Source of the DNA: an uncultured Bacteroidota bacterium
GTDB lineage: Bacteria; Bacteroidota; Bacteroidia; Chitinophagales; Chitinophagaceae
DNA length: 64,000 nucleotides
Assembly: GCA_903877645.1 (NCBI GenBank)
Contig: CAIRES010000073.1
Span: forward strand, 124,001-188,000
Direction of reading: 5' to 3'
Both the position numbers and the translations under genes were made by a program. Under the pieces are notes generated by a model that saw only the letters and a list, made by a program, of their open reading frames with translations, made no database searches and had not been told where the DNA came from. Shown here one piece after another: positions 40,214 to 43,490 of this stretch; position 1 is the stretch's first letter, and the number at the start of each line of letters is the position of its first letter.

Positions 40214-40933
40214 ATGAAGAAAATTGTAAAGAAACATCCGTTAGCCATCAGGTGGTTTCATTGGGTCAATTTCCCGGTGCTCACGGTTATGATCTGGAGC
40301 GGACTGCTTATTTATTGGGCCAACGATATTTATCGCCTGGGGTGGGGTGATAAGACATTGCTTAAATTTTTTCCGCAGTCGGTATATGATGCCCTGCATG
40401 TGCCGTTCCATTTATCAACCGGTATGGCGTTCCACTTTTTCTTTATGTGGTTCTTCTTCATCAATGGTATACTCTATGTGCTATACACCATCTTCTCAGG
40501 TGAGTGGCGATACCTGTTGCCTGAGAAGAGTTCCTTCAAAGAAGCGTGGCAGGTGGTGCTGCACGACCTGCACCTGCGTAAGACAGCTCCACCACAGGTG
40601 AAGTATAATGCAGCGCAGCGTGTGGCTTATTCTGCTATCATAGTGATGGGTGCCGGGTCTATCATCACCGGCCTTGCTATTTACAAACCTGTTCAGCTCC
40701 ACTGGCTGTGCGCGCTTTGTGGTGGTTACGAATTTGCACGCATCATACACTTTGCCCTCACTATTGGTTATGTACTGTTCTTTATCCTTCATATAGTGCA
40801 GGTGATACTGGCCGGGTGGAACAACTTCCAGGCGATGGTGACGGGCTTTGAAGTGGAGCAAATAGTGGAGGTAGAAGAACCTGTACCAGTGCAACCCGAA
40901 CCAATTGCGCCCATCGAAACTACCGAACCATGA
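40214..40933 (+). CDS. Cytochrome b561-type membrane subunit, partner of the Mo oxidoreductase
   Basis: A 239-residue integral membrane cytochrome b. About four spans carry pairs of heme-ligand candidate His: WFHWVNFPVL near the start, ALHVPFHLSTGMAFHFFFMWF, and the late IIHFALTIGYVLFFILHIVQV. The C-terminal tail is Glu/Pro-rich and cytoplasmic-looking. It resembles the b-type subunits of thiosulfate reductase/formate dehydrogenase gamma. The stop overlaps the next ATG by 4 nt (ATGA at 40930), so it is translationally coupled to the molybdopterin enzyme and is the likely electron donor or acceptor for it. Confidence 0.88.
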   Translation: MKKIVKKHPLAIRWFHWVNFPVLTVMIWSGLLIYWANDIYRLGWGDKTLLKFFPQSVYDALHVPFHLSTGMAFHFFFMWFFFINGILYVLYTIFSGEWRYLLPEKSSFKEAWQVVLHDLHLRKTAPPQVKYNAAQRVAYSAIIVMGAGSIITGLAIYKPVQLHWLCALCGGYEFARIIHFALTIGYVLFFILHIVQVILAGWNNFQAMVTGFEVEQIVEVEEPVPVQPEPIAPIETTEP

Positions 40934-41697
40934 GCAGATACCTACCGAATCCGGAAGAAAAGATAGTGCCGGATGGTGCTGTGAGAAAGCGTAGCATCAT
41001 TGCCTTCTCTATGTTCATTCTCCTGCTGGTGGGTGGTGCGCTGTTGTTTGCAAGGCTCTATAACGAACCACAATCTGCGAACAATGTGCAGCCTACGCTC
41101 CGCAAAGGGCTTAAGGCCAACGAACGATTATTCAGTCTCTTTTACAGCAAGCACCGCGAAGCAAAGTCATTCACAAAAGATGATGCCGTTAAGAAGGTGC
41201 GCGTAAACGGCGATGTAGGCATGGATGGCACCCTGGATACCACATGGCGCCTCAAGGTAGCCCGCAACCCCGGCGATACGCTCATGCTTACAATGGACGA
41301 CCTGAAGAAACTGCCCAAAACAGAGGTCGTATTTGACTTCAAATGTGTGGAGGGCTGGAGCCAGGTGACCTGGTGGGGCGGCGTTCGCTTCAGCGACTTC
41401 CTCAAAGCCTACAACCTTGCGCCGCAAACAGGCCTCAAATATGTGGGCATGATCACCCCGGATGAAACCTATTATGTAGGCAACGATATGCCCAGTATGC
41501 TGCAGCCTCAAACCCTGCTTGCCTACGAAATGAACGGCCAGCCATTACCTCAAAACCAAGGCTATCCGTTACGCCTCATCATCCCTGTAAAGTATGGTAT
41601 CAAGCACCTGAAACGAATTGGCGTTATGTACTTCAGTAACGACAAACCCAAAGATTACTGGGCAGAGCAGGGGTATGACTATTACGCAGGCTTATAG
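40930..41697 (+). CDS. Membrane-anchored sulfite-oxidase-fold molybdopterin oxidoreductase
   Basis: A 255-residue protein with one N-terminal span (about 22-42, SIIAFSMFILLLVGGALLF) and an extracytoplasmic domain of the sulfite oxidase/YedY fold. The Mo-ligating Cys is C139 in FDFKCVEGWSQVTWWGGVRFSDFL; LLAYEMNGQPLPQNQGYPLRLIIP and KHLKRIGVMYFSNDKPKDYW follow as in the family. It is shorter than MsrP and lacks a twin-arginine motif (the basic stretch before the span is VRKRS), so how the cofactor-loaded protein is placed is unclear. With the overlapping cytochrome b it resembles an MsrPQ-like quinol-linked reductase; substrate unknown. Confidence 0.85.
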   Translation: MSRYLPNPEEKIVPDGAVRKRSIIAFSMFILLLVGGALLFARLYNEPQSANNVQPTLRKGLKANERLFSLFYSKHREAKSFTKDDAVKKVRVNGDVGMDGTLDTTWRLKVARNPGDTLMLTMDDLKKLPKTEVVFDFKCVEGWSQVTWWGGVRFSDFLKAYNLAPQTGLKYVGMITPDETYYVGNDMPSMLQPQTLLAYEMNGQPLPQNQGYPLRLIIPVKYGIKHLKRIGVMYFSNDKPKDYWAEQGYDYYAGL

Positions 41698-41719
41698 TGT
41701 TTTCAGTAATATTATTTCG

Positions 41720-41727
41720 TAATTTTG
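41720..41727 (+). promoter_or_regulatory. Candidate -7 box for the HicB-like/hicA module (leaderless)
   Basis: TAATTTTG, an exact TAnnTTTG match, 7 nt before the ATG at 41735. Confidence 0.4.
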
Positions 41728-41734
41728 TGTGCTT

Positions 41735-41941
41735 ATGAAAGAGGTCATTTTTTTAGTAGAAGAAAGTCTTGAAGGTGGATATACTGCTAAAGGTGTTGGC
41801 GTGTCTATCTTTACCCAGGCAGAAACTATTCTTGAATTAAGAGACGTTGTAAAGGATGCAGTAAACTGCCATTACGACGATGCAGATAAGCCCGGACTTA
41901 TTCGGTTACATTTTGTAAAGGACGAAGTATTTGCTGCATGA
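41735..41941 (+). CDS. HicB-like antitoxin (partner of a HicA-type toxin)
   Basis: A 68-residue protein, MKEVIFLVEESLEGGYTAKG then SIFTQAETILELRDVVKDAVNCHYDD, belonging to the small HicB-like partners often mislabelled as 2-oxoisovalerate dehydrogenase. ATG 41735 is chosen over the GTG 6 nt upstream because it fits the family start. The frame is intact. Its stop overlaps the ATG of the toxin gene (ATGA at 41938), the normal arrangement for such modules. If the toxin is dead, this gene may persist as a free antitoxin or repressor. Confidence 0.82.
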   Translation: MKEVIFLVEESLEGGYTAKGVGVSIFTQAETILELRDVVKDAVNCHYDDADKPGLIRLHFVKDEVFAA

Positions 41942-42178
41942 AATTACCAAGAGACATTAGTGGGCTAGAATTGGTTCACAAGTTGAAAGCGTTGGGTTAT
42001 GTGAAAACAAGAGTCAGGCAGTCATATCAGGGCAACGACTCAAGAAAACGGAGAACATCATATAACTATCCCTTCGCATGATCCACTGAAGATTGGTACT
42101 TTGTCATCAGTATTATCAGACGTAGCTGCCCACTTTGATAAAAGCAAAGAAGAAATACTTAAGTTGATCTTCGATTGA
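41938..42178 (+). pseudogene. hicA toxin gene broken by a frameshift
   Basis: HicA toxins are small mRNA interferases with a dsRBD-like fold. Starting at ATG 41938 the frame reads MKLPRDISGLELVHKLKALG then YVKTR, then leaves the family and stops at TGA 42079-42081. From 42011 the third frame resumes the family exactly: ESGSHIR, HHITIPSHDPLKIGTLSSVL and DKSKEEILKLIFD, to TGA at 42176-42178. Restoring two bases in the AAGAGTC stretch at 42009-42015 (a lost GA in GAGA) would give one intact protein of about 80 residues with the conserved GSH. It is either a real 2-bp deletion or a sequencing error; all large genes nearby are intact. Confidence 0.85.
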
Positions 42179-42189
42179 TTCCTCCTCCA

Positions 42190-43032
42190 CTAATCCCCTT
42201 CCTCCACCAGCTTAGTACCCGTCTGTGTGAATTCGATCTTACGTTTCTTGTACAACGCACCGAGTGTCATTTTAAAGGTCTTCTTGCTCATGCCAAAGAA
42301 CGCATGTATATCCTCCGGGCCGGACTTATCATTGTAAGGCAGGTAGCCTTCATTCTCCACCAGCAGGTTGAGTATTTTGGCTTCTTCCTCCGGTACGCGG
42401 GTGTAACCTTTTATGCCGTGCGAAATATCTATCTTGTTATCCGGGCGTATATGCTTTACAAATCCCTTTAGCTTATCTCCTATCTCGTAAGGCTTGAACA
42501 CTTCGTTGTAGTGCATCAGCCCCATGTGCCTGCTATTGATGATCATCTTGTAGCCTATGTCTGTTTTCTGAAACACTACAAGATCCACCGGGTCATGCTC
42601 TTTTACCGTGAGCTCATAATTGCTGAGGTACTTATCGATCTTCTCTGTGCCGGTGACGCGGCCTGTCTGCTCGTCTATGAACAGCCGTATCAGCCTGCGG
42701 TCGCCGGCCTTCATTTTCTGCTCCTGGTGCGATATGGGTACGAACACATCCTTCATAATGCCCCACTTCACAAATGCGCCCGATGGGTTCACATCGGCCA
42801 CTTCCATCATCGCTATTTCTCCTACCGTGGCTATGGGTTCCTGCGTGGTGGCGATCACCCGGCCTTCGTTATCGTGGTATATAAATACCCTGATCTCATC
42901 ATCCACTTTGAGGCCTGCGGGTACAAACCGTTTGGGCAGCAATATCTCTTCACCTTCACCCCCATCGAGGTACATCCCGAAATCCACTTCCTTTGCTACC
43001 TTCAGCGTATTATATTGTCCTACCTGTACCAT
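42190..43032 (-). CDS. CvfB-like S1 RNA-binding protein
   Basis: A 280-residue RNA-binding protein from ATG 43032 (MVQVGQYNTLKVAKEVDFGMYL); the longer frame upstream adds 24 residues with no family match. It shows several OB/S1-like folds (DFGMYLDGGEGEEILLPKRFVP; MEVADVNPSGAFVKWGIMKDVFVP; KGFVKHIRPDNKIDISHGIKGYTR) and a C-terminal winged helix (FGMSKKTFKMTLGALYKKRKIEF). This matches CvfB/YitL, which binds RNA and modulates gene expression. Cytoplasmic. It is convergent with the toxin remnant, 11 nt apart. Confidence 0.92.
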   Translation of the reverse strand: MVQVGQYNTLKVAKEVDFGMYLDGGEGEEILLPKRFVPAGLKVDDEIRVFIYHDNEGRVIATTQEPIATVGEIAMMEVADVNPSGAFVKWGIMKDVFVPISHQEQKMKAGDRRLIRLFIDEQTGRVTGTEKIDKYLSNYELTVKEHDPVDLVVFQKTDIGYKMIINSRHMGLMHYNEVFKPYEIGDKLKGFVKHIRPDNKIDISHGIKGYTRVPEEEAKILNLLVENEGYLPYNDKSGPEDIHAFFGMSKKTFKMTLGALYKKRKIEFTQTGTKLVEEGD

Positions 43033-43490
43033 ACGCTTGCAAGATACGGTTAATTCGTTAATTGGGTAAATTGGTCTGTGCTTTCTTGCCGAAGTATGGT
43101 GCATTCACAATCGTGCTATTTTTCTTTGTATTATTCTTAGGCTGTATTCTGTTTTGCTGTGTGATACGTGAGTGCAGATGCCTCGTACCTCGGCATGACA
43201 AATTAGTATGTGTTTCAGGCGAAGAAAACTTCGCTCATTTTACGATTTCCGGTTTTAATGTAAGGTGAAATTTACTTCCAGAAAACCTCCTTCGCTATGG
43301 CAGCGGCAGTTGAAAAAGGTTAATTTTTCTTCCATTTCGGGTGAGTTGCCGATTCTTTCCGATCCTTTCCGGTTTTTTCCGGTGATTGAAGGGATACGGA
43401 AATTGTTGTATCGCTTTGTGGTAAAGGGTTTCGTTGGTTTTTAGTATTTATTTTTCCGGTGTTGTTGTTTTTGTGTTTCTATCTGTGCGA

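Follow-up and report, generated by a model that had tools for sequence, protein, structure and literature searches.

A broken hicA toxin gene beside an intact hicB antitoxin gene, and a toxin-only bias among damaged hicBA loci of related bacteria

A toxin gene that can no longer be read in one frame, next to an antitoxin gene that can, raises the question of whether such a pair still works as a toxin-antitoxin module and, if it does not, in which order its genes decay. We address this question for a hicB-hicA pair in the window, i.e., the whole stretch of 64,000 nucleotides analyzed here from an uncultured Chitinophagaceae bacterium. The two genes are adjacent and in the same orientation. The first, hicB (positions 41735 to 41941, plus strand), codes for a short antitoxin of 68 aa that is intact and can be aligned over its full length with 16 relatives (53 to 76% identity); it overlaps hicA in the tetranucleotide ATGA (41938 to 41941), an overlap found in 10/10 intact pairs from the genus. 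We found that hicA is spread over two frames rather than the one continuous frame of ~80 codons that a HicA gene should have. Its 5′ part (41938 to 42081, plus strand) opens with the ATG at 41938, matches the family over codons 1 to 25 (to 42012), which read MKLPRDISGLELVHKLKALGYVKTR, and then runs on in the wrong frame until this shuts after 47 codons (47 aa in total). Its 3′ part (42014 to 42178, plus strand), in a different frame, reads SGSHIRATTQENGEHH...LKLIFD* and supplies the remainder of HicA from SGSHIR onward, including the GSH motif. The break between them is at position 42013 (plus strand), where a single base stands opposite the whole Gln codon that precedes the GSHIR motif in the relatives.

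For 10/10 HicA proteins from intact relatives, tblastn against the window returned two adjoining pieces, one in frame 1 and the other in frame 2; across 59 other genomes, tblastn matches to HicA were recovered from 15, with E values of 1e-22 to 3e-16 for 14 of them and 9.7e-4 for the last. By itself, the 3′ piece matches the Pfam HicA_toxin family (PF07927; E = 4.3e-5; 24 bits, under the curated cutoff of 27), and Pfam searches at E ≤ 0.1 gave no match for either the 47-aa first hicA frame or HicB. In the HicA alignment (A3; 15 rows, including the window's piece), G28, S29, and H30 are invariant, and this motif sits 3′ of the break. The His of the motif is an active-site residue required for HicA activity, according to the portion of the HicAB review consulted (PMC11594946). 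Because the GSH motif lies beyond the break and is absent from the 47-residue product, the latter, which would be missing most of the fold as well as the segment with the active site, should be inactive. When the window gene is aligned at the DNA level with 11 hicA copies from the genus that read in one frame (A4), it is two bases short, the gap being drawn a few columns away from the Gln codon. The earlier note on this DNA, made from the letters alone, had read the locus as a HicA toxin inactivated by a 2-bp loss next to an intact HicB-like antitoxin; the frame reading, the tblastn pieces, and the alignment with relatives all bear out the first part, and the hicB frame, clean along its entire length, bears out the second.

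In its general organization, the pair resembles the HicAB/HicBA type II modules (PF07927), with which it shares a HicA-like toxin of ~80 codons bearing the GSH motif and an adjacent antitoxin with an RNase H-like core domain. It differs from them in its broken toxin frame, in the hicB-hicA gene order, and in an antitoxin that has no C-terminal helix-turn-helix (HTH) or ribbon-helix-helix (RHH) domain, although the consulted portion of the HicAB review gives both the hicBA order and HicB proteins without HTH/RHH as existing variants (PMC11594946). The structural model of HicB (pLDDT 94) has one small domain with three strands, a helix, and a further strand, as in a partial RNase H-like fold. 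Structure comparisons of the model with PDB entries ranked TTHA1013 (Z = 8.0), TTHA1756 (6.6), and the SWOL_0700 antitoxin (6.0) highest, with E. coli HicB at 5.2 (HicB3) and 4.9. Support for this fold assignment is moderate, because HIV-1 reverse transcriptase chains score 5.6 against the same model and the best Foldseek E value is 0.023. Sequence profiles place the protein less readily: window HicB retrieved no family from NCBIfam and Pfam at E ≤ 1, 3 of 17 members of its family match PF15919 (HicB_lk_antitox; best E = 0.033), and the profile built from that family has a weak match to TTHA1756 (E = 0.014). TTHA1013 (PDB 1wv8), which we take to be a UPF0150/HicB-like protein, and TTHA1756 (PDB 2yzt) are stand-alone Thermus proteins that are similar to window HicB in length (67 to 71 aa) and fold but only ~20% identical to it. 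For TTHA1756, a UPF0150/HicB-like assignment is given in the part of PMC4848639 consulted. As modeled, window HicB consists of a single 68-residue core domain lacking the C-terminal DNA-binding domain, a condition that the consulted part of the review describes as common (PMC11594946). An antitoxin of this kind would make doubtful the promoter-repression test that the earlier note had proposed.

Upstream of hicB we observed TAATTTTG (41720 to 41727, plus strand), a match to the motif TAnnTTTG. We take this motif to be the Bacteroidota -7 element; it occurs within 40 bases 5′ of hicB in 14 of 20 loci from the genus, including the window, against a mean of 0.53 and a maximum of 4 in mononucleotide shuffles. 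The motif-to-ATG spacing is 7 bases in the window versus 13 to 17 in 13 relatives, and the hicB leader in the window may be nearly absent. Elsewhere in the same genome, four other HicA loci score above the Pfam cutoff with frames open across the match; the broken copy in the window is not among the matches listed. A separate locus of this genome (L207; G000:C53:21073-21237) matches HicB_lk_antitox and is interrupted by a TAA, and no HicA match is listed on that contig; it is possibly another decaying module.

The module is flanked on its 5′ side by a gene for a molybdopterin-binding oxidoreductase (40930 to 41697, plus strand; PF00174) and on its 3′ side by a convergent gene for a CvfB-like protein with S1 and winged-helix domains (42190 to 43104, minus strand; PF13509 and PF17783). 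Seven genomes, including the one under study, have both flanking genes no more than 3 kb apart on one contig, and in 6/6 of the others hicBA is absent from the site. Where the module is missing, the flanks abut (G025) or are separated by 1 base (G032) or 192 bases (G023, whose flanks are 83 to 85% identical to those in the window), and three further genomes (G030, G017, and G026) have different genes between them. Since six genomes have no module at this site, we infer that hicBA was probably gained here in the lineage of the window rather than lost from the others. The contents of this gap (41697 to 42190 in the window; L124, L125, L126, L127, and L128 elsewhere) differ among species: G030 has a HEPN and nucleotidyltransferase pair (PF05168 and PF01909), G017 a 102-aa gene together with a DUF6036 nucleotidyltransferase, and G026 a 573-aa protein that is possibly secreted, whereas G025 and G032 have nothing. 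This gap may be a preferred place for the insertion of toxin-antitoxin modules.

Which of the two genes breaks first was counted across the family with searches seeded by HicB in 35 genomes of the genus (one protein, E ≤ 1e-3), 396 of the order (profile, 1e-4), and 395 of the phylum (profile, 1e-6), the sets overlapping. HicB of the window's family is present in 18/35 genus genomes, its own included. The output of one script, with the classes read off by eye, yielded 73 distinct hicBA loci, of which three are cut by contig ends (two in G023 and one in G383), leaving 70 assessable. Both genes are intact at 43, HicB is intact and HicA broken or absent at 15, and both are damaged at 12 (6 of the 20 from the genus); a broken HicB with an intact HicA occurs at 0/70. 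HicA remnants are present at 11 of the 15 toxin-only loci, and at the other four (G312, G073, G557, and G602) the HicA profile finds nothing. HicB may be paired with a different protein in G557 and G602, and omission of all four gives a bias of 11 to 0. The one-sided sign probability is 3e-5 for 15 to 0 (0.5^15; 9e-5 when weighted by gene length) and 5e-4 for 11 to 0; these values treat the loci as independent, and the 15 toxin-only loci come from 15 different genomes. The earlier note had held out, as counting against its reading, the case in which every close relative has an intact toxin. This is not the state of the genus, where 22 HicB loci comprise 10 with both genes intact, 10 without, and 2 cut by contig ends.

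The class assignments involve several scoring decisions. Weak rows were dropped from the order set (G261, G271, G042, and G191:C8), as were partial second HicB copies from the phylum set (G447 and G539), which have no intact HicA listed alongside; two pieces in G015:C7 were merged into one locus, and G366, a few C-terminal residues short, was scored as intact. At several of the 12 both-damaged loci (e.g., G004, G007, G024:C34, and G046), no more than about ten C-terminal residues of HicB are missing; such HicBs might still work, in which case these loci would be toxin-only. Because HicB had seeded the count, searches seeded by HicA were run as a counter-check in 60, 396, and 395 genomes, including the window's. 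Each one-frame HicA of at least 75 bits has an intact HicB alongside, with the exception of G023:C737, where HicB is cut by a contig end. At 18 loci with weaker HicA matches (under 62 bits; up to 51 in any single frame), a check that left out seven weak places of the order and phylum searches, a faint HicB profile match lies near 11 and none near 7; these are probably remnants or members of other HicA subfamilies. Another set seeded by HicA, of nine loci outside the 70 (seven cyanobacterial and two from Dyadobacter), too distant for strain comparison with the window, contains two with a broken HicA and an intact HicB (L038 and L041), seven with an intact HicA, and none with antitoxin-only damage; in this set, the HicB of L037 is cut by a contig end, and L035 and L036 have identical scores.

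Two pairs of orthologous loci show one locus at different stages of decay: G014 is intact and G007 decayed, with flanks that are 93% and 91% identical, and G034 is intact and G002 has a stop codon in hicA, with flanks that are 74% identical. Other broken hicA copies carry lesions of various types, scattered from about model position 5 to position 56. Frame breaks could be located in eight copies (the window, L038, G015:C7, G090, G379, G606, G447, and L041), four of which break at model positions 23 to 30, near GSH. A frameshift hot spot at this point was considered and is not claimed, the simulated probability being 0.063 for 4 of 8 breaks within 6 codons, a span slightly narrower than that observed, for a question posed post hoc. 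Breaks at or just before GSH, like that in the window, are seen in L064 (G015:C7), L079 (G090), and L038. On the minus strand, L049 (G015:C78) has an insert of ~140 bases within hicA with ends that look like inverted repeats, reminiscent of a MITE.

The position and form of the break bear on whether it is a lesion at all or part of a regulated gene. The earlier note had derived it from the loss of one GA from an ancestral GAGA by slippage in a dinucleotide run, leaving a phase-variable site as one outcome, in which slippage would toggle HicA on and off. The arithmetic fits, since the site, now AGAG, is indeed short by a net two bases; yet the codon missing from the window, where a single base remains, is CAA or CAG in 11/11 aligned relatives from the genus, with no GA repeat, and slippage in a dinucleotide run therefore has no basis here. 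Two repeat units are, moreover, very few for a contingency locus, and the scatter of lesions along hicA elsewhere likewise speaks against a dedicated switch. We rejected GA slippage on this evidence and regard a phase-variable toxin as exceedingly improbable. Programmed frameshifting would instead join the two frames into a full-length HicA, and both halves of the gene are open and conserved in sequence. The shift required is +1 (or -2), however, which is beyond a common -1 heptamer, the break, inspected by eye, offers no evident site where a tRNA could plausibly slip, and all 43 intact pairs encode HicA in one frame; we find this mechanism scarcely credible.

An error of sequencing or assembly, with a true gene that is intact and a module that works, is improbable rather than absurd. 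The source genome is a draft (3.84 Mb, 88 contigs, 98.3% complete), the break is the sole lesion seen in window hicA, and the gene still encodes every residue that is invariant in the HicA alignment, a retention that points to a break that is young, or an error. Against an error, a control in which tblastn was used to match 448 open frames, taken from 16 stretches of seven relatives, to the window (E < 1e-10) found no other frameshift candidate across 26,096 conserved coding bases, the remaining 38 kb lying outside its reach. On this basis, hicA, with its 241 bases, would be expected to contain at most 0.028 spurious indels (95% upper bound), although detection of the two frames there, plain with 10/10 relatives, needed laxer BLAST settings than the control, the genes being short. 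Toxin-only damage also recurs at 14 more loci of the family, some of them drafts too. Between the fixed decay and the read error that the earlier note had left side by side, these results favor the former. Codon models gave an omega of 0.113 for hicA on the window branch versus 0.057 elsewhere (2dlnL = 0.68 against one ratio), with omega = 1 unrejected (2dlnL = 2.6), values that fit decay and constraint alike; the ratio of first- plus second-position to third-position branch lengths for window hicA is 0.52, the highest of 11 (0.18 for the tree), in line with decay but set aside as a noisy measure with third positions near saturation. For hicB on the same branch, omega is 0.024 and omega = 1 is rejected (2dlnL = 10.3). 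This constraint, together with the presence of the HicB family in about half of the genus genomes, could mean that the orphan HicB is kept because it is useful, e.g., as an antitoxin that counters addiction to hicBA modules entering the cell; this anti-addiction model is described in the consulted part of PMC2654758. The constraint may nevertheless predate the breakage of the toxin, and the both-damaged loci are as expected if a leftover antitoxin is not kept, so that we consider such retention unlikely. Equally speculative is the notion that the short orphan HicB outlives its toxin through selection for anti-addiction, with protection from related hicBA modules, many of which circulate in the genus; this would make toxin-first decay a route to immunity and not just a stage on the way to loss.

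Toxin-first decay is thus, with high probability, the history of this locus: gain of hicBA between convergent genes, followed by breakage of the toxin with the antitoxin left intact. A two-gene module would have inserted, probably in the lineage of the window, into the gap between its present neighbors; hicA would then have become two bases short immediately 5′ of the GSH motif, its translation stopping after 47 codons with an inactive product, and hicB, 5′ of the break, would have been left untouched with its promoter-like motif. The logic of fitness would favor this order, as loss of the toxin should be harmless and loss of the antitoxin first would poison the cell. Decay of chromosomal toxin-antitoxin modules, as in ccdO157 of E. 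coli, and abundant orphan antitoxins, as in Klebsiella, are described in the consulted parts of PMC2654758 and PMC7192599, as well as in PMC7167474; these systems share with the present one the loss of module function but belong to other families. A literature search in which most subscription journals lay outside coverage found no paper on decay of this hicBA family.

The locus in the window is real and ordinary: it is a pseudogene in a module of known type and a further case of the already known decay of toxin-antitoxin modules into orphan antitoxins; the frame break predicts an absence of toxicity. The part worth keeping is the toxin-only bias counted here for one hicBA family, in which a textbook expectation becomes countable: at each of these loci with damage to one gene only, that gene is the toxin (15 of 70 loci, versus 0 for the antitoxin). 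Annotation should accordingly not treat a clean HicB beside a HicA remnant as a functional toxin-antitoxin system, and toxin-first decay, which recurs in related bacteria, is an ordinary stage in the decay of these modules.
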